64,000 nucleotides of DNA from an uncultured Alphaproteobacteria bacterium (GTDB taxonomy: Bacteria; Pseudomonadota; Alphaproteobacteria; Rhodobacterales; Rhodobacteraceae), in NCBI GenBank assembly GCA_902533625.1, contig CACAMI010000001.1, forward strand, positions 62,001 to 126,000, given 5' to 3'. The notes under the pieces are model-generated. The model was given only the letters and a program-made list of their open reading frames with translations, had not been told where the DNA came from and did not search any database. Each line of letters opens with the position of its first letter. Position 1 is the stretch's first letter. A program made the position numbers and the translations under genes. Shown here one piece after another: positions 35,231 through 46,429 of this stretch.

Positions 35231-37513
35231 TTATTTAAGTTTAAAGGTGTTAATTTTATCTTTTGTCCCACCTGCAATTTTTGATAACTCTAACATGGAT
35301 GCCGTGATTTCTTCAGAAGAAACCGCATTTGCTTCCCCAATTCTTTCTAAATTATCTGCTGATTTTGTTACTTCTTGCAGGACATCACTTTGCTGACTTG
35401 TTTGCTTTGTAATGTCTGACATCATTGTTTCAATTTTTATGATTGTTTCACCAATATGTTTCATTTCTTCCTGAAGCTCATTCATCCTATTAACTCCATC
35501 ATCTGCCTTTTCCTGAGCTTCTGTTGTAAGGGTGCTTATATCTTTTACAGAAGCTGAAGATTTATCAGCAAGCTTTCCAACTTCCGTAGCAACCACAGAA
35601 AAGCCTCTTCCAGCCTCACCGGCTCTCGATGCTTCAATGGATGCATTTAGTGCCAACATGGTTGTTTGTTGTGCTATATCCTCTATAAGGGAAGAAATAT
35701 CCCCAATTCTAGAACTATTGCTCAGAATTTCATTCACAACACCTACCATATTTTGAGCTTCTTCAGAGCCCTTACTTGCCAAAGTTGAGGCATCTTCAGC
35801 CGCATCACTTGTATTTTTTGCACTTTGATCGACAGAAGATGCTAAATTTCCAGATTCTTTTACTTTGGCTTGAATATCTTGAGTAGCGGCTACTTGTGCC
35901 CTTGCCCCATCAGAAACTTGGCCTACTGCTTCTCCGGCTTGTGAAGCTGCAGAAGCTATTTGTTGAACATCATCTAGTATTTCTTTTAGCGCAAGTGATA
36001 GCTTTTCTAATGATTCGTCAATATGAGAGGCGCATCTTCCTATATCTCCCTGGTAGCCATCTGGAAGTCTTGCAGTCAAGTTGCCACTCGAAACACTTGT
36101 AAATAAATCTTGAATTTCTTTGAAAGCCTTTTCCGTTTTTTCAAGCATATTATTCATTGATTGACCAGCCGCACTGATTTCGTCATTCCCCTGTGTTTTT
36201 AGTCTAAGAGAAAAATCACCATTGTTGGCAATGCTTTTTGTTACCCGTGTGAATTCATTCATCGGAAAAAGAATAGTTCTTCTAGCAACTAAATAACCAA
36301 TTAAGAGGGCAATAAGTATACCTCCACCAGATAAGCCCCATGTACTAAGAATTCGCTGCTCTGTTAGAAAATCATTATTTGCTGTCTTATCTTCTATACC
36401 AAGTTCCAACTGCTTTAAGATCCTACCAATAGTATCCGATACATTCCTAAATTCCGAAAAAGTCATTGTTTTTTGTAGCTTTAATTTTCTTAACCTTGTG
36501 CCATCTTCGACGAGGGCTTTTTTAAAGGCACCAAGTTTTCTCTCATATTCAAAAATAGATTTTTCAATCGAACTGGCAAAAAATTTACTAATATAAATAT
36601 CAAACTGGGCCCCAACATTAGTGTCTGCGGTATATTTATCTTTAAAAGTATTTTCTGCCGCAATTAATTGGAGAGCTGTATTCTTGCAGGCATTAAGAGT
36701 TTTCTGTACTTTGGTTAGAAGATTATTTTGTTTCTTTATTTCCTCTGCTTGATCCAGATATCTACCAAAGTACGCCTCTAACTTTATTTGATCATTTTTT
36801 AATTCTTTTAAATTACTACTTAAATCTATTAGAAGCATTTGGAACTTTATTGGGGTATTATCAAACACAAGGGCGTCCTCTTTTTTTATTGTAGAGCTGC
36901 GCTTGAACAATAAACCATTTTGATAGACCTTGTTAGCTAATCTAATACCTTCATCAGCAAGTTCAACCGCCTTGGAAGAAACAGCATTTAAATCTTCAAT
37001 AACCATGGTATTATTAATAGTGGAGGCTGTTGTGCTGAATTTTATTTCATCTGTCTTGTCTGATAATGAACTGATTCTTGAGTAAAGCGTCTGCAAAATT
37101 AAAAAGAGTTCTCTCTTTTCTGTTTCTGTCTGAGAGGGGATTATTTCTTCTTCTGGGTCTAATTCACTGCTTGCCGGGTTTTCATTTGAGGTTTCATTAG
37201 GTGCATATATAATCATTGCTTTACTGATGGCCTCAGAAAAAAGCTTTTCCTCCTCCTCAGTTTTCTCAAAAAATGTGTAACCTCCGTCGCTTGTGTCATT
37301 GGCATAAGAAATACCTTCGCTTACAAGCGCTTTCCAAGAGTCAAGGGCATTATTAGCAATTCGCAACTCTGAAATCACCGACACATCTTCAGAAATAATT
37401 TGACGGTAACTTGTTGAGATTTCTCTAAGAGTGTACCCAGCAATATAAGATATTGCTATTGCCACCAAAGTAAGTGGTATAAGATCTAACAGTGATTTGT
37501 AAATTACTCTCAT
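35231..37513 (-). CDS. Methyl-accepting chemotaxis protein (two TM, large sensor region, HAMP, signalling domain)
   Basis: TM near N-terminus, long helical sensor region, [25 protein letters not shown], tip [44 protein letters not shown]. Confidence 0.93.
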
Positions 37514-37590: not shown

Positions 37591-39096
37591 TTAGGATGAC
37601 AAGATGTTAATCTCTTTGCGGATGTGAGTTTTCAATATTTTTCCATAGTTATTTTTTGGAAGCTGTTTACTAAAAAAGTATTTTTTTGGCCTCTTAAATC
37701 GGGCTAAATTCTGGAGACACAAGTCGTCCAAAATTTTCTCAATATTATCATTTATTTTTTTTAAGACTACAATGGCTACTACTATTTCACCCCATTTTTT
37801 GTCTTCTAATCCGACAACTGCAACCTCTTTAACATCAGGATGCAATAATAGAACGTCTTCGATTTCCCTTGGGTAAACATTCATTCCTCCAGTTATGACC
37901 ATGTCCTTAGATCTGTCTTTTATGGTCAGTATGCCGTACTGATCAATAGAGCCTAGGTCTCCAGTAAGTAACCAGCCATTTCGCAATGCTTTTTTTGTTG
38001 CTTCCTCATTTTTATAATATTCTTTCATAACGCAATCAGACTTAGTTATTATTTCTCCAACTTCACCCAAGGGAACAGGGTTCCAGTTAGAGTCAACAAC
38101 TTCTACGCTACATGCTGTTCGTGATATTCCTGCTGATATTAAAAGCTCATTATAATATGGTTTTCTTTTATCAGAATACATAGCTTTTGTAATATTAGTT
38201 ATTGTCATGGGTGCTTCCCCCTGGCCATAAAGTTGGTATAGGGTATTCCCAAATATCTCCAAAGCAATTTTGGTATCAGACAGGTACATTGGGGCGCCAC
38301 CAAACTCTAGTGTTTTTAATCCCTTGAGATTAGCTGATGCCATCGTGTGAGATGAGAGGCGCTTTACCATTGTTGGTGCTGCAAAGAATGAGATGTTTTC
38401 CTCCGTAGAAAGTAACCCAAAAATTTCTTCTGGCTCAAAGTTTGATTGGCATATATAGTTTTTTGCACCCTTTAAAATAAATGGAAGCGCATAAATTCCA
38501 GAACCGTGGGTCATGGGTGCGGCATGAAGTCTAATATCTTTTTCATCAATGGAATCCACGTCTGCAAAATATGATAAACTCATAAAAAGAAGATTTCTAT
38601 GAGTTAAGACCGCTCCTTTAGGTTTTCCTGTGGTACCTGACGTATAAAAAATCCAAGCAGGATCTGTCACGTCATTTTTTAAATGGGGTAGGTGCTCAAA
38701 TTTGGAAGTTTTTATAAATTCTTTTGAATAATTCACAATTACAGGCATATTTGAATGGATATCAGATATTTTATCTTTTGAGCAGAAAATCAATTTTGTG
38801 TCTGAATTTTCAAATATCCAAGCGAGTTCTTTCTTGTGGAGTTTGGAGTTTATAGGAACTGCTGTTAATCCAGCCTTCCATATCCCAAAAAGAATTGGAA
38901 GGAAAAGGTGATCATTTTCCATCACTAAAGCCACATGTTCGCCTTTTTTAAGGTTAAAAGTTTTAGACAGAGCTGAGCCTATGCTACTTGCCACATTGCA
39001 GAAATCCATATAACTTAGACTGCCGCCATCCCAAAAAATAGCGCTTCTATTGGGTTGGATTTTTGTTATTCTTTCAAGTTCTGAATAAAAATTCAT
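37591..39096 (-). CDS. AMP-dependent synthetase/ligase (acyl-CoA synthetase-like)
   Basis: IFYTSGTTGKPKGAVLTHRNL; GWLLTGDLGSIDQYGILTIKDRSKDMVITGGMNVYPREIEDVL. Confidence 0.93.
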   Translation of the reverse strand: MNFYSELERITKIQPNRSAIFWDGGSLSYMDFCNVASSIGSALSKTFNLKKGEHVALVMENDHLFLPILFGIWKAGLTAVPINSKLHKKELAWIFENSDTKLIFCSKDKISDIHSNMPVIVNYSKEFIKTSKFEHLPHLKNDVTDPAWIFYTSGTTGKPKGAVLTHRNLLFMSLSYFADVDSIDEKDIRLHAAPMTHGSGIYALPFILKGAKNYICQSNFEPEEIFGLLSTEENISFFAAPTMVKRLSSHTMASANLKGLKTLEFGGAPMYLSDTKIALEIFGNTLYQLYGQGEAPMTITNITKAMYSDKRKPYYNELLISAGISRTACSVEVVDSNWNPVPLGEVGEIITKSDCVMKEYYKNEEATKKALRNGWLLTGDLGSIDQYGILTIKDRSKDMVITGGMNVYPREIEDVLLLHPDVKEVAVVGLEDKKWGEIVVAIVVLKKINDNIEKILDDLCLQNLARFKRPKKYFFSKQLPKNNYGKILKTHIRKEINILSS

Positions 39097-39097
39097 A

Positions 39098-39814
39098 TTA
39101 GGATTTTTGCCATAGAACTATATTACCCTTATTAATTCTTTTCCATTCGGTCCCAGTCATTTTTGGATCTGTATCCCCAAGTATTAAAAAACCGCCTGTC
39201 TTCACCGATTTTGCTAGGCTTCTTAAAACCTTAGCTTTGCCATTTTCTGTCATGTGGAGAAGAACATTTCGACATATGACAATATCAAATTCAAAGTTGT
39301 AAGGGCCCGTAACCAAATTATGAATATCAAAAAGAATAATTTTACTGAGACTTTTTTTGAATTCAACATATGTAGAATTCAGATTTTCATCAGGACAAAT
39401 ATTCATAAAGGTATCTTTCTTGAATAAATGTATCTTTTCAATTTCTTTACTTCTGTATAAAAAATATTTTCCCTTTTTTGCATGATGGATTGCATCAATA
39501 TTTAGGTCTGTTCCAACTAGTTTCAGGTTCAGATTTTTCTTACTCATTAGATATGCAGAATACACCTCCTGTCCTGTTGAACAGCCGGCAAACCACACCC
39601 TGGAATTTTTCTGGTTTATTAAATTTCTAAGAAGCTCTGAAACTTCCGCATTTCTAAAAAATGATGTTTCTGGATTAACAAAATTTTTGGCAGCTCCAAA
39701 AATTTTATCTCCCATGAAGTCCGCAGAAGTGTACATTTTTGACAAAGAGGACAATTTTTTTTCAGTAAGCTTTAGCCCCGTTTTTTCCATTATGTAATGA
39801 CTGAAATCTTTCAT
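39098..39814 (-). CDS. cheR: CheR-type protein-glutamate methyltransferase
   Basis: NPETSFFRNAEV; VWFAGCSTGQEVYSAYL; FDIVICRNVLLHM. Confidence 0.92.
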   Translation of the reverse strand: MKDFSHYIMEKTGLKLTEKKLSSLSKMYTSADFMGDKIFGAAKNFVNPETSFFRNAEVSELLRNLINQKNSRVWFAGCSTGQEVYSAYLMSKKNLNLKLVGTDLNIDAIHHAKKGKYFLYRSKEIEKIHLFKKDTFMNICPDENLNSTYVEFKKSLSKIILFDIHNLVTGPYNFEFDIVICRNVLLHMTENGKAKVLRSLAKSVKTGGFLILGDTDPKMTGTEWKRINKGNIVLWQKS

Positions 39815-39827
39815 TTACTATTTTAAT

Positions 39828-40139
39828 CTAGATATTGCCAATTTCAACCGCGATCAGACCATTATTGTAGCTCACAAATCCATATGTATTCCCTAAAACC
39901 TTGGAAGATGGTGTGTCCAGTTTTAATGGTCTTCCTTGAACCTGGGTAGGCTTAGTTTCACTGGGTATTAGGTAGTTCTCATTTGTAAGAATTTTAAATG
40001 CAGAATTTCTTGAAGGACTATTATTGTAAAGTTTGTGCATGACTTTACCTTTTCCTTTACCGGAAATCACTTCTTTAACATTATTAAGACGAAACACTAA
40101 ATTTTTATCGTCCCAAGTAGCTAATACGTAAGTCTCCAA
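39828..40139 (-). CDS. Hypothetical 103-aa protein in the chemosensory operon (possible divergent CheW-like/partial domain)
   Basis: METYVLATWDDKNLVFRLNNVKEVISG; 12 bp from cheA and 13 bp from cheR, same strand; no confident family. Confidence 0.55.
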   Translation of the reverse strand: METYVLATWDDKNLVFRLNNVKEVISGKGKGKVMHKLYNNSPSRNSAFKILTNENYLIPSETKPTQVQGRPLKLDTPSSKVLGNTYGFVSYNNGLIAVEIGNI

Positions 40140-40151
40140 TTCTTAACCTTT

Positions 40152-41804
40152 CTAAGCTGCCTGATTGTCATAATCAAATAACCGTTCAACATTTAATCGA
40201 AAAATTATGTTCCGATCGTCGTCGACAGTGGTTCCTGATACAAAAGGGAGATTTGAAATCAACTTATCCGGTTGGTCAAAAACGATTTCATCATATACGA
40301 AATCACCAAAGTAATTAATGGCTATAGCTTTATCTGATAAGGAAAGTAGTATTATTTTTTCAACAAATCCTTTAGAATTATTAGTAGGCAAAGATAGTAA
40401 CTTACTTAAATCTTGAATAGGGATCTGACTTTTATTATATCTAATGTGCTCAGTCCCCGTCACAATATCTGTTTCCAAGTCAGATTTATTCTTTACCCAT
40501 TGAATTGATCTCGATGGAACAGCATAAAATGTGGGCAAATCTTTCAAAATTATGCATTCCTCAGTACTGACTGCTCCGGGGATAAGTACAGAAATATTGG
40601 TACCTTTATTTTTTTCAGAAAAAATCTCTATTTTGCCGCCTAGCATCGCAATATTTTTTTCCACAACATCCATGCCTACTCCTCTGCCTGAAGTGGAGCT
40701 CACATTCTCGGCAGTAGAAAAACCAGGCTTAAAAATCAAAGAATAAATATCTCGTTCTTCTAATTCTTTTGGGTTCGACTTAGAAATGAATTTCTTTTCT
40801 ATTGCTTTCTTAAGTATTTTATCTTTATCTAAACCACGACCATCATCAGAGAGTTTTATTACCAGATTGTCCCCTTCCTTTTGGAATGACAAATTAATTT
40901 TGCCTATTCCTTTTTTAGGTCTATCCTTATCCTCTTCAATTCCATGATCAATTGAATTTCTTATCATATGCATCAAAGGGTCAGCTAAGGCCCTAATTAT
41001 ACTACGATCAGCTCTTTCGTTATCTCCTTTTACATTGAATTGAATTTTCTTTTTAAGGCTCTTTGAGGTATCTATAGCTGCTCTCTTCAATCTTCTAACT
41101 AAGTCATTTACAGATATGAGTCTTAAGTCAGTAATTCTTCCGTTCACAATTTGTATGTCATTGACTAATTTCTCTAAAATAACATTCGCATAGTCATTTT
41201 CAGCCATTGTGTTAACTTGCTCGAAAGCCCTCTTTAAGGCATTTGCTCTAGAGATTAAAGTTCCAGATTTTTGAAAAAGATCATCAAGAGAAGCAGAACT
41301 TACTTGGGTGAACCTTTCTTCTTCTAATGAATCCAGATTACTTAAAGGTTCACTTACTAGGGAATCATCAAAAGTTTCATTTCTATTTTTTTGTTTAATT
41401 TTCGAGGGTTTTCCTTGAAGAATTTCTTCAAGCACTGACTTGCACGATCCAAAATTCTTGGTAATTACTTCTTTACGCTCTTTTATAGATTTTTGTAAAA
41501 TTGCTTTTAGCACATCTGTAAAATTTAATAATGCAGTACGTAGATTGTCATCTAATATAATTTTGCCCTTTCTTGATTCTGATATTAAATCTTCAGCAAG
41601 ATGGGTTAAAGTTACAGTTTCAGACAATCCGATGCTACCAGTCAACCCTTTTAAGGAATGAAAACTTCTGAAAATAGAGTCTATTTCTGCCTTTGAAAGA
41701 TCTTTGTTTACGCTATCCAAAAGCAGATCTTCGGAATTCTTGCAGTGTTCCAAGGCTTCTGACTCGAACTGGGCCCAAATCTCGTCTAAGAATTCATCAT
41801 TCAA
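40152..41804 (-). CDS. cheA: Chemotaxis histidine kinase CheA
   Basis: Hpt H-box FRSFHSLKGLTGSIG; N-box DPLMHMIRNSIDHGIE; G boxes DDGRGLD and GRGVGMDVV; CheW-like C-terminus. Confidence 0.95.
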   Translation of the reverse strand: MNDEFLDEIWAQFESEALEHCKNSEDLLLDSVNKDLSKAEIDSIFRSFHSLKGLTGSIGLSETVTLTHLAEDLISESRKGKIILDDNLRTALLNFTDVLKAILQKSIKERKEVITKNFGSCKSVLEEILQGKPSKIKQKNRNETFDDSLVSEPLSNLDSLEEERFTQVSSASLDDLFQKSGTLISRANALKRAFEQVNTMAENDYANVILEKLVNDIQIVNGRITDLRLISVNDLVRRLKRAAIDTSKSLKKKIQFNVKGDNERADRSIIRALADPLMHMIRNSIDHGIEEDKDRPKKGIGKINLSFQKEGDNLVIKLSDDGRGLDKDKILKKAIEKKFISKSNPKELEERDIYSLIFKPGFSTAENVSSTSGRGVGMDVVEKNIAMLGGKIEIFSEKNKGTNISVLIPGAVSTEECIILKDLPTFYAVPSRSIQWVKNKSDLETDIVTGTEHIRYNKSQIPIQDLSKLLSLPTNNSKGFVEKIILLSLSDKAIAINYFGDFVYDEIVFDQPDKLISNLPFVSGTTVDDDRNIIFRLNVERLFDYDNQAA

Positions 41805-41814
41805 TTATACACCT

Positions 41815-42240
41815 TTAATTTTTAACCAATTGATTAATTAAGTTCTTTAGATCCTCCCCCTTTTTTTGAGCTAATGTAGGATCTAATGCTCCACCAGGCT
41901 TATCAATTATTCCATCTGCCCCTAATTTCTTTACTTCGGCCGAGTAAGTACTGCCAATTTGAGCTAGAGATGATACAATTATTACTTTTGCTTTATGATG
42001 CAAACGAATTTCCCTTAAAGCCTCCACTCCGTTCATAATCGGCATTTCAATATCTAAAAGAATAATCTCAAATTTTGAATTATCGAGCTTTTCAAGAGCA
42101 ATTTTTCCATTTTCCGCTTCTTCTATGAGATCAAACATATTCAACTCTTCAACTATTTTCTTTAGCATCATCCGCATCAATTTACTATCATCAACAATTA
42201 AGACGTTTCTATTTGCATCTAAATTCATTTTTTCACCCAC
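41815..42240 (-). CDS. CheY-like receiver (similar to a CheB-type receiver)
   Basis: VLIVDDSKLMRMMLKKIVEE; IILLDIEMPIMNGVEAL; VIIVSSLAQIGS; DGIIDKPGG. Confidence 0.9.
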   Translation of the reverse strand: MGEKMNLDANRNVLIVDDSKLMRMMLKKIVEELNMFDLIEEAENGKIALEKLDNSKFEIILLDIEMPIMNGVEALREIRLHHKAKVIIVSSLAQIGSTYSAEVKKLGADGIIDKPGGALDPTLAQKKGEDLKNLINQLVKN

Positions 42241-43273
42241 CGTGAGATAAACTATACTTTTCTGTTAGGAGATCGCCAATTTTTTTGGGTTCCGCAATGA
42301 TATCCTGATACCCTTTTGCAATAACGGAAAGCGGCATAGTTTTGGCAACTGCGGTACTAGGGTCTTGCACAAAAATGAGTCCTCCATTTTCTTTGTGAAT
42401 CTTAGAGCCTTCACAAGCATCTGAGCATAGACCACTCAATATTACAACATCACAAAGTTTATTTTTTTCCGAAACTCCTTTAAGAAAGGAATCTATGTTA
42501 GGTGTAAAAAGTTTCCCAATTTTTGGAGGGATATAAGATATGAAAAAATCATTTGATTTTTCTCTTAGCTCGGCCTCGAATCCTCCTTTTAACATTGAAA
42601 CACTGTTTTCAACTATACTGCCGTCATTTGATATGCGAATTTTAAAGCCATTGTCACAATAAAACTTATTTAGTCGATTTACAAAAAATTCATCGACCCC
42701 CTCTGGCATGTGAATGGCGGCAATAATTGGGATGTGAAAATAATCAATTCTCCTCAATATTTCTTCAAGGGGTTCTAAGGAACCTGCTGATCCTGCAATT
42801 AAAAGCATGTCAGCTTTTGAAGAAATTTGTATGACTTGGCTATTGTTTATTGATTTAGGAGATAAAATATTTCTTTTTATTTGTTTTTCTATGGCACCCA
42901 AATAATCAAGAATATCTTCTCTAAATTCATTTAAATTGATCCCTTTTCCTATTTTATTTTTCGAAATAAATCCAATTGCACCCAAGCGAAACGCTTCAAT
43001 TATCTTTTTGCCATCAGATCTATGGAAGCCACTTACTATCAAACATTCAGATCTATGGCTTTTTTCTCGAAGGTTTTTCAAAAGTTCCACGCCGTCCATG
43101 ATTGGCATTTCCACATCTGAAATTATCAGGTCGGCCATATAATTTTCATTTTCCAGAAAAGCGTCCTTTCCGTTTTCTGCCTCCCAAATGACTTCAAAAC
43201 TAGGATTCGATTGAACTATTTGCTTGATCACCATCCGAATGAATTTAGAGTCATCAACAATAGCGACTTTCAT
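42233..43273 (-). CDS. cheB: Chemotaxis methylesterase CheB (receiver + methylesterase)
   Basis: AIVDDSKFIRMVIKQIV; LIISDVEMPIMDGVELL; LLIAGSAGSLEPLEEIL; AAIHMPEGVDEFF; VVILSGLCSDACEGSK. Confidence 0.88.
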   Translation of the reverse strand: MKVAIVDDSKFIRMVIKQIVQSNPSFEVIWEAENGKDAFLENENYMADLIISDVEMPIMDGVELLKNLREKSHRSECLIVSGFHRSDGKKIIEAFRLGAIGFISKNKIGKGINLNEFREDILDYLGAIEKQIKRNILSPKSINNSQVIQISSKADMLLIAGSAGSLEPLEEILRRIDYFHIPIIAAIHMPEGVDEFFVNRLNKFYCDNGFKIRISNDGSIVENSVSMLKGGFEAELREKSNDFFISYIPPKIGKLFTPNIDSFLKGVSEKNKLCDVVILSGLCSDACEGSKIHKENGGLIFVQDPSTAVAKTMPLSVIAKGYQDIIAEPKKIGDLLTEKYSLSHGG

Positions 43274-44715
43274 TTGGAAAGCTCTAAAAAACGTTCCTTT
43301 AGATCTTCTGTATCTATTTGATAATAAATTTTGTCAGAGTAAACAATCTTCGCAGCGGACACATTTTGGAACTTGGCGGCGTGGTCACCCCTGATGTCTT
43401 TATGGGTAAGGTTTCTTGAAATTGAGATTCTATTAATATCAGGCACCGCCAAAGCAGCCTGTATTTCACTAATTTCAAAAAAAATAATGAAATTGCGTTG
43501 AGAAACATCACTTCCGCCCAATACAACGCTTAAATCAAAGACAGCTGTAACCCTATTTTCCAATTCCGTGTACCCCAGCATATTTTGCTGCTGATTTTTG
43601 GAAATTTTTATTTCCGATGAATGGGATACTTTTTTAAGCAGTTCTAATGGTAAGAGGTAATTATAAGTATCACTATGAATAGTTAAAAAGCTAATAGTCT
43701 CATAAATTTCTCCTGAAGCCACATTCTTAAGCGTAGGAGAAAAAGGATACAATGATTTCAATGCATCAATTCCCTCCAAATTAATGACCCTTAAGTGTTC
43801 ATTGTTTTTGGAATCAAAACCAAATACCGAGGATCCTTCAAAAAGATTTTTTAAATCACTCAAATCAGATTTTTTCTGTTTAATTTTATCATGTTTATTT
43901 GTGCGGACTAAATTATTTTTTGGGACGTTGTGAAGTTCACATTTTTTTTCACTACCTATTGCAATTGTATGCCTACCCTCTTCATTTTCTAATGGGGAAG
44001 AAAAGAAGGCTTGAAAAGCATATTTAGAATTGCCACCACCTATAAAAGGACAAAGTGAATCACTAAAATTTGCCATTGGCACGGAACAGCCAGAAAACGA
44101 ATCAATAATTTCGATATCCTTCATAGGTATGACCCTATTTAAGTCCTCAATATCTACAGCAAACTTTTCATTTTCGGTGACAAATGAAAGAAAAGTTCTA
44201 TTTTCTTCTATAGATGTATTTTCTTTTAGAAAATCAACGGGCTTCTCTTTTTTAATTGTATTCTGATCCCCCATGAGGGAGTTAAATAACTCCTCTACTT
44301 TGACATAAATTAAATTTTGCCTGCCTAATTTAGTTCTAAGAAGAGGGGTTAGTTTTTTCCCAAAGCCCACTTTAGATGATTCGGGTTCAATTTTAATAGT
44401 TTTTAAGCCAATAATTTCATCGATTTGTAAGCATATATTTCTATCTGATTCCTCCAAGAAAATTAAAAACTTTGGAATATTAGAGCTACGCCTTTTTGTT
44501 TCAATTATAAATTTTGGGTCTGCCAAAAGGACAGCTTTGCCAGCATTTTGAGCCACACCAATTAATGGCTTTTCTAAATTTTCTAGTAAAACAATTTCAT
44601 CAAAATCCTTTACTGCAGAGAGAAAAGTTTTTGGTAAGGCTATTAACTTATCACAACATTTTGTAATGAGAACATCACAATCCAGGTATTTTAGTTTTTT
44701 TTTGTTAGCAACCAT
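43270..44715 (-). CDS. Multi-domain CheW-like scaffold, probably three tandem CheW-like domains
   Basis: Three regions with CheW pattern: ~12-150, ~172-300, ~350-480 (e.g. FLTIHSDTYNYLLPLELLKKV...NRVTAVFDLSVVLGG...NFIIFFEISEIQAALAVPDINRI). Only CheW-like product in the operon apart from the CheA C-terminus. Confidence 0.7.
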   Translation of the reverse strand: MVANKKKLKYLDCDVLITKCCDKLIALPKTFLSAVKDFDEIVLLENLEKPLIGVAQNAGKAVLLADPKFIIETKRRSSNIPKFLIFLEESDRNICLQIDEIIGLKTIKIEPESSKVGFGKKLTPLLRTKLGRQNLIYVKVEELFNSLMGDQNTIKKEKPVDFLKENTSIEENRTFLSFVTENEKFAVDIEDLNRVIPMKDIEIIDSFSGCSVPMANFSDSLCPFIGGGNSKYAFQAFFSSPLENEEGRHTIAIGSEKKCELHNVPKNNLVRTNKHDKIKQKKSDLSDLKNLFEGSSVFGFDSKNNEHLRVINLEGIDALKSLYPFSPTLKNVASGEIYETISFLTIHSDTYNYLLPLELLKKVSHSSEIKISKNQQQNMLGYTELENRVTAVFDLSVVLGGSDVSQRNFIIFFEISEIQAALAVPDINRISISRNLTHKDIRGDHAAKFQNVSAAKIVYSDKIYYQIDTEDLKERFLELSK

Positions 44716-44878
44716 TTTTTCTTTTCTAACGCCTTTTCAATTTCTTAGTCTAAGGTATATAAATTATACTAAATTTAAAATACTAATTGAAATCTAAACT
44801 TAATTACAATAATCCTTTCATATCATTGGTATATTTCAGTGGATGAATTTTGAACTTTTTTTTCCAAGTTAAATTAGA

Positions 44879-45223
44879 ATGACAATTGATAGTAGCTTTG
44901 TAAAAAACTTATTTGTTTCAGACGTGATAAAGGTTGACGCAGGAAATTCAATACCTTTGGGCGATCATTTCTATTTTGTTAATTCCGGAGTAGTTTCTGG
45001 AAGCATCGGTGTGAAGAGACCAGCTAAATTTAAAGCTGAAGCAGGACAATTTTTTAGTCTGAAGTCTATTATTAACCCAGAGGATAAGGTCAATTCCGCT
45101 TTGGCAGATACGATGGTTGAATTAACAATGGTTAAATATAACGAGTTAGAGAAGGTTTTAGGTGGAACTGATAAAAATCTAAGCGCATTATTAAAATCAT
45201 TAATTTCTCAAGGAATCCATTAA
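44879..45223 (+). CDS. Small protein with degenerate cyclic-nucleotide-binding-like fold
   Basis: HFYFVNSGVVSGSIGV...AEAGQFFSLKSII...ALADTMVELTMVKYNELEKVL resembles the CNBD strand order; PBC motif not conserved. Confidence 0.55.
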   Translation: MTIDSSFVKNLFVSDVIKVDAGNSIPLGDHFYFVNSGVVSGSIGVKRPAKFKAEAGQFFSLKSIINPEDKVNSALADTMVELTMVKYNELEKVLGGTDKNLSALLKSLISQGIH

Positions 45224-46098
45224 TGTCGTCTGATTTCGATTTTGGAAATTTTTTAGATCTAAAAAATCAGGTAATACTTAAGATAAATTGTATAAAGCTT
45301 TTCCAGTGCTTATGTAATCCAAAAAAAAGTCAAAAAGACATTTCTCTCATAAGGGATAATATCTTAGAAGATCCAATTTCTAAAAGCTTTTCGGGTTTTT
45401 TTGATGTGATTCTGAATTTGAAATTAGATAATAAAGATTCCATTCTACGAGCTTTCCCCCATCTTAATTTAATGATTAAAACACTAAATGATAACGGTGA
45501 GGCAGATGCAGAAATACTGGGGACAAAACAAAAATTGAAAGAAAATTTGAGTGATTTTTACATTAGAATAATGGATAAAGATGACATCTGGGTAATTTCT
45601 CAGATTCATGAGTTTCTTGAATCGGAAAGTGATTTAGCGACGATTTTAACGCGCATACTTGATTTGGAGGTTTCGGATATGGGTATTATTTCGGAAGTTA
45701 GAGATTTGTTAGAAAATAAAAATTCTTTGGCAGGATTAGAGGCACTCCTAAAAAAACTGCTTTCAGATGAAGACAGAGGTTTTATTACCGGTGAGGAAAG
45801 GAGAATATTATTAGACAGGGGTGTTAAGGAGAGCTTTGTTAATTTAATTACAAAAGAGTCTTTAAAAGACCTGACCCCACAAAATTTATTGGAAGACAAG
45901 TTATTTCTAATATCTTTCTCAGAGGAAATGCTTAATGATAAGCCAGATTTTATTGAAAAAATTACAGAAAATGGTGTAATTCTAACTAGTACTGGTGCTG
46001 AATCGAAAGATGGTTTTGTATTTTTGGTTTTATCTAAAAATGAAATGAGCAATAGTTTTTTTGAGAATTATGATCAATCTATAACTGAGGTAATATAA
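45223..46098 (+). CDS. Hypothetical 291-aa protein, predicted mostly helical
   Basis: Start overlaps the stop of the preceding gene (TAATG); no recognised motifs. Confidence 0.75.
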   Translation: MSSDFDFGNFLDLKNQVILKINCIKLFQCLCNPKKSQKDISLIRDNILEDPISKSFSGFFDVILNLKLDNKDSILRAFPHLNLMIKTLNDNGEADAEILGTKQKLKENLSDFYIRIMDKDDIWVISQIHEFLESESDLATILTRILDLEVSDMGIISEVRDLLENKNSLAGLEALLKKLLSDEDRGFITGEERRILLDRGVKESFVNLITKESLKDLTPQNLLEDKLFLISFSEEMLNDKPDFIEKITENGVILTSTGAESKDGFVFLVLSKNEMSNSFFENYDQSITEVI

Positions 46099-46099
46099 A

Positions 46100-46429
46100 G
46101 TGAGTGGAAGTATAGAACCTATAGTTCAGGGTCAGGTAATATTTGATATAGGTCAAAATATTGATAAATGCTTTATCCTTCAAAAGGGCTCTATTCATAT
46201 TATGAATAGTAAGGAGGAGAAAGTTGGAGGCATTGGGCCTAACACTATGTTTGGGTTTACAGAATTGGTTAAAGGAAAATTCGAACACTCGACCAAAGCC
46301 ATATGTGTTTCTTCAGGAACGGTTGTGTCTTTTCCATCTGAAATAATAAAAAATAAATTAGAAGTATATAAAGAAGATAGTAAAAGCTTTTTGGAAACTT
46401 TAGCGGATCAGGTTTTAGGAAAAAAGTAA
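46100..46429 (+). CDS. Small cyclic-nucleotide-binding-like domain protein without HTH (GTG start)
   Basis: GQVIFDIGQNIDKCFILQKGSIHIMNSKEEKVGGIGPNTMFGFTELVKG...TKAICVSSGTVVSFPSEIIKNKL. Confidence 0.7.
   Translation: MSGSIEPIVQGQVIFDIGQNIDKCFILQKGSIHIMNSKEEKVGGIGPNTMFGFTELVKGKFEHSTKAICVSSGTVVSFPSEIIKNKLEVYKEDSKSFLETLADQVLGKK

Follow-up and report, generated by a model that had tools for sequence, protein, structure and literature searches.

A conserved gene trio encoding two stand-alone CNBD-fold proteins and an orphan protein accompanies a Che operon in uncultured Alphaproteobacteria

The DNA analyzed here (the window, 64,000 nucleotides) belongs to an assembly of 1.85 Mb with an estimated completeness of 75%, from a family of several hundred genera whose genomes mostly measure 3-5 Mb. 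The closest relatives found were uncultured alphaproteobacterial assemblies named AG-xxx, a style of name that we take to be that of marine single-cell genomes. The locus consists of a complete Che operon on the minus strand, with the order cheW3-cheB-cheY-cheA-NOV3845Y-cheR-(acyl-AMP-ligase-like gene)-mcp (Pfam; NCBIfam), and a set of three plus-strand genes, hereafter the trio, which is separated from cheW3 by 163 bp and divergent from the operon. An Rfam search of the window gave no match. The features are as follows:

35231-37513, minus strand: MCP (Pfam, genome search).
37591-39096, minus strand: acyl-AMP-ligase-like gene between cheR and the MCP gene (by eye).
39098-39814, minus strand: CheR (Pfam).
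39828-40139, minus strand: small motility protein of the NOV3845Y family, 103 aa (NCBIfam NF052409.1, 173.8 bits, cut-off 140).
40152-41804, minus strand: CheA with Hpt, ATPase, and a weak CheW-like domain (Pfam).
41815-42240, minus strand: CheY-like receiver (Pfam).
42233-43273, minus strand: CheB with receiver and methylesterase (Pfam).
43270-44715, minus strand: CheW3, 481 aa, with three CheW-like stretches (Pfam).
44716-44878, no strand: divergent intergenic region between cheW3 and C114, presumed to hold promoters (layout, alignment of nine loci).
44879-45223, plus strand: C114, a 114-aa stand-alone CNBD-fold protein with cassette Glu replaced by Leu61 and Arg by Lys70 (ORF, weak PF00027 match in nine of nine orthologues, AlphaFold/Foldseek, alignment).
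45223-46098, plus strand: M291, an orphan, mostly helical protein of 291 aa with a conserved N-terminal DFDFGxFLD (ORF, model, alignment, conservation test).
46100-46429, plus strand: C109, a 109-aa stand-alone CNBD protein with cassette Glu replaced by Phe53 and Arg by His63 (PF00027 at 39 bits, alignment, dN/dS 0.055).

The three plus-strand ORFs of 114, 291, and 109 aa proposed in the first-pass annotation were confirmed. The TAATG overlap at the C114/M291 junction was also found as described, whereas the GTG start of C109, said to lie 2 bp after a stop, is in fact separated from it by one spacer base (TAA-A-GTG), a trivial difference. Locus comparison revealed near-overlapping junctions in both genera in which the trio occurs, namely the genus of the window and a second genus. 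The trio genes are real, since orthologues are present in eight other genomes and are under purifying selection.

Rates of dN/dS were computed within the second genus for ten genes, all of which had values of about 0.21 or less. C109, which no other protein at the locus exceeds in constraint, gave the lowest value (0.055), compared to 0.079 for CheY, 0.125 for C114, 0.134 for CheA, and 0.207 for M291. Identities between the two genera amounted to 74% for C109, 61% for CheY, 58% for C114, 45% for CheA, 31% for M291, and 26% for CheW3. With the exception of its N-terminal DFDFGxFLD motif, M291 was the fastest-evolving protein.

The trio adjoins the same Che operon, in identical order and orientation, in nine of nine genomes with an intact locus. 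Besides the source assembly, these are eight other genomes in the two genera, and the trio is divergent from cheW3 in each of them. In the second genus, the genes outside the block are entirely different from the flanks in the window. Co-occurrence of the trio with the MCP gene was assessed across the second genus (22 genomes): six contained both, one only the trio, one only the MCP gene, and 14 neither (Fisher p = 6e-4). Both discordant genomes are explained by contig ends, as the contig starts inside cheW3 in one and the MCP gene is cut in the other. Linkage and co-occurrence are those expected of a Che system component: the trio is not a chance neighbor, its association with this operon is obligate, and the tie to the adjacent Che system proposed in the first-pass annotation holds in every intact locus of two genera while the flanks change.

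Beyond these loci, a CheW3 search of 397 genomes of the family gave matches in these two genera only, and an M291 profile run against 385 genomes of the class yielded no further credible copy. A pattern search for M291 in genome contigs gave no match. The wide search for C109 was restricted to strict peptide patterns, which divergent copies may have escaped. Relatives of C109 and M291 were not found in plasmids, nor were relatives of C109 in viral contigs. Two weak genome-search matches (L004 and L005) were rejected as DHDPS-like enzymes by eye, and a further match (G442, E 0.0017), an unrelated region with stops, was rejected as noise.

The MCP at 35231-37513 was the sole one found in the source assembly by genome search. 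Its long N-terminal region has no credible Pfam match, and the sensor is uncharacterized. In one relative, AG-453-O22 (G001), a second, orphan MCP gene was observed distant from the Che operon (L063, 6930-9461, minus strand). The acyl-AMP-ligase-like gene between cheR and the MCP gene is present in the window's genus and absent from the second genus. Copies of the NOV3845Y family diverge fast, with 26% identity between the two genera. Inspection of the Che/trio loci revealed no cheZ, cheC, cheX, or cheD.

Flagellar genes were present in most relatives carrying the block. Two flagellar markers were absent from the source assembly and from one 91%-complete relative, which may be due to incompleteness. 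The N-terminus of a FliM from the second genus reads LSSEEVDALI, presumably a canonical CheY-binding motif, and on that basis a direct route from CheY to the motor exists. Flagellar control by this Che system is likely. A type IV pilus as output was rejected because no T2SSE ATPase scored above the cut-off in three genomes. Within the second genus, no statistical link between trio and flagella was found (p = 1), since most of its genomes have flagellar genes. Among these 22 genomes, the Che block was present in about a third, which is rarer than incompleteness alone suggests; possibly, there are flagellated strains without chemotaxis.

The first and third trio products had been described as CNBD-like from their strand pattern, and this was borne out for C109 by Pfam and for C114 by its predicted fold. 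C109 passed the gathering score of PF00027 (39 vs. 27.5 bits), and nine of nine orthologues matched. C114 remained below this cut-off (17.2 vs. 27.5 bits); all nine orthologues matched weakly, with a best E of 1.4e-4. The AlphaFold model of C114, calculated with no templates (pLDDT 82, pTM 0.76), displayed the CNBD order of elements. A Foldseek comparison of this model with the PDB gave 427 matches at E <= 1e-3, which assigns C114 to the CNBD fold; the best 50 of the 427 were CNBD channels, CRP-family regulators, and other CNBD proteins. The C-terminal HTH characteristic of CRP/FNR regulators is missing, as C114 stops after the last CNBD helix and C109 has no residues past the CNBD to form an HTH. 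Both outer proteins are accordingly stand-alone CNBD folds, as had been proposed. No sequence relation between C114 and C109 was detectable by hhalign with the shallow profiles available, and a recent duplication is therefore not supported.

The motifs quoted earlier in support of an altered phosphate-binding cassette (FGFTEL with HSTKA for C109 and FFSL for C114) are correct, and the alteration itself extends to nine of nine copies, in which both Glu and Arg are gone. When aligned with six other stand-alone CNBDs from these genomes, C114 has Lys70 and C109 has His63 in the column of the phosphate-binding Arg, and Leu61 and Phe53, respectively, in that of the ribose-binding Glu; the C109 cassette register may be off by one or two residues, but no register places an Arg in the cassette. 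F53 and H63 of C109 as well as L61 and K70 of C114 were invariant across the nine copies. Judged by the cassette Glu (ribose) and Arg (phosphate), neither C109 nor C114 qualifies as a functional cAMP/cGMP receptor. Lys70 and His63 could nevertheless hold a phosphate. The phosphate-binding Arg is kept in five of the six other stand-alone CNBDs of these genomes and absent in L046, and L033 and L043 are without the cassette Glu.

About three further CNBD proteins were observed per genome, mostly small and stand-alone (L024-L026, L029, L030, L033, L034, L043, L046). Degenerate cassettes likewise occur in L043 and L046. Class III cyclase genes lie beside some of the canonical stand-alone CNBD genes in these genomes.

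The 291-aa protein, previously called an orphan, kept this status, as no credible match was found in Pfam, NCBIfam, PDB sequences, or PDB folds. Its model (pLDDT 85, pTM 0.62) consists of a chain of helices followed by a small alpha/beta part at the end, and a comparison with PDB and viral fold libraries gave nothing at E <= 1e-3. Lrp/AsnC-like Foldseek matches (best E 0.04, TM about 0.2) were insignificant and were rejected. By family profile or fold (Pfam, NCBIfam, PDB folds), M291 does not classify as a CheZ/CheC/CheX phosphatase. The N-terminus MSSDFDFGxFLDxxNQ is nearly unchanged between the genera: 12 of 15 positions in residues 2-16 are identical, compared to 31% overall (binomial p about 1e-4). 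In the model, residues 1-10 are poorly ordered (mean pLDDT 59). As this segment is conserved yet poorly ordered, it fits a docking peptide and may have a docking role. Judged by eye, DFDFGxFLD is similar in character to the acidic-hydrophobic peptides with which FliM and CheZ bind CheY.

The reading that we favor, and to which we would give an even chance, is that the trio forms an accessory complex dedicated to the Che system, in which helical M291 is the scaffold for two non-canonical CNBD modules. Translational coupling would cause the three proteins to be made together, and C114, M291, and C109 would most likely assemble into one complex. C114 and C109 would serve as CNBD-fold subunits without canonical cAMP/cGMP binding and present conserved protein-binding surfaces. 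The complex would dock on a Che component, probably via the C109 surface together with the conserved M291 N-terminus, and would tune the kinase or the response-regulator step. We infer that the three proteins associate, that cNMP binding was lost, and that the complex docks on a Che protein and has a tuning effect. Probably, C109 and C114 act as protein parts that tune chemotaxis and not as ordinary cAMP sensors. As the first-pass annotation proposed, they may be protein-interaction modules or have a different ligand, with a possible role in output or tuning of the adjacent Che system. Neither a fold unrelated to CNBD nor an unrelated context in relatives, which the first-pass annotation had named as observations that would contradict it, was encountered.

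Alternatively, C109 and C114 may be real sensors of nucleotides or small molecules whose pocket was remodeled (Arg to Lys/His) and which feed energy or cyclic-nucleotide state into the Che system, comparable to the action of the PilZ adaptor MapZ with c-di-GMP on CheR1. The retained CNBD fold is consistent with such a role, as are the invariant and chargeable His63 and Lys70 and the class III cyclase genes in these genomes, some of them adjoining canonical stand-alone CNBD genes. The very strong constraint on C109 is expected of a ligand pocket, but equally of a protein interface. Moreover, a Phe or Leu stands in place of the ribose-binding Glu and the Arg is lacking from both proteins, and we regard a sensor function as possible but somewhat unlikely. 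The working part could also be M291, which would bind CheY-P via its acidic N-terminal peptide, either as an alternative target or as a CheZ/CheC-like phosphatase, with the CNBDs as stabilizers. This role, which we consider unlikely, would agree with the lack of cheZ, cheC, cheX, and cheD at the locus, the mostly helical model, and the likeness of DFDFGxFLD to the CheY-binding peptides of FliM and CheZ. That likeness was judged by eye, however; M291 matched neither the CheZ family nor any solved fold, and a FliM from the second genus carries its own motif, LSSEEVDALI.

Co-occurrence of the trio with the Che operon, taken alone, is also compatible with an independent passenger inherited with the operon. 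The trio would then have a separate job, e.g., in cell-pole positioning or stress, and be merely co-inherited as a block, which its divergent transcription from the operon would suit. Its persistence beside the operon in two genera with completely different outer flanks argues against this, as does the fact that the trio was never found without the operon, a contig end excepted; we consider a passenger very unlikely. Returning to the accessory complex, a wider claim can be put forward tentatively, and with some doubt: the trio may represent a new class of chemotaxis regulatory complex, with two ligand-free or re-purposed CNBDs and an orphan scaffold, that is integral to a minimal one-receptor Che system and in which a CNBD-like protein is the most conserved part of the pathway. 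No description of the trio was found in the literature, and no relevant publication was retrieved on Che systems that include stand-alone CNBD proteins.

Although chemotaxis is better understood than any other bacterial signaling pathway, little has been learned about its accessory parts in uncultured ocean bacteria with small genomes. A single-receptor Che operon with a degenerate CNBD as its most conserved protein would offer a simple system for studying CNBD function after the loss of canonical ligand contacts. Furthermore, the published NOV3845Y motility operon gains three further testable genes.

Among known systems, the PF00027 family (CAP/CRP, MloK1, GlxR) shares the fold with C109 and C114, i.e., an N-terminal helix, a beta roll, and C-terminal helices. 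In contrast, C109 and C114 are single-domain proteins without HTH, channel, or enzyme, and their cassette Glu and Arg are replaced in all copies. The best PDB sequence match of the C109 profile was Bd2879 (PDB 9SFA, E 5e-4) of Bdellovibrio, in which the phosphate-cradle Arg and the ribose Glu are likewise replaced, as in C109; as Bd2879 exemplifies, CNBDs with an altered cassette can retain other pocket residues (PMC12750041). Unlike the trio proteins, however, Bd2879 carries two HTH domains and is a putative transcription factor, Bd1971 is an EAL enzyme, and neither of them belongs to a three-gene Che module. MapZ of Pseudomonas aeruginosa is a stand-alone PilZ adaptor for c-di-GMP that acts on CheR1 (PMC6370697). 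Its likeness to the trio CNBDs is a functional analogy only, that of a small single-domain protein with a second-messenger fold acting on a Che enzyme; fold and ligand (c-di-GMP) differ and no homology is claimed. The NOV3845Y family (PMC10849945; NF052409.1) includes the 103-aa gene of the window operon. NOV3845Y originates from a che operon of the genus UBA8309 and enlarged the swimming halo when expressed in E. coli (PMC10849945), and this genus belongs to the Puniceispirillaceae (PMC10256201). With 22% identity (E 1e-11), the published protein and the copy in the window are remote homologues. Through this membership and the origin of the published copy, the Che operon type is partly known already and is probably wider than the two genera studied. 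The family covers the small Che-operon gene only and not the trio, which is not mentioned in the main text of PMC10849945.
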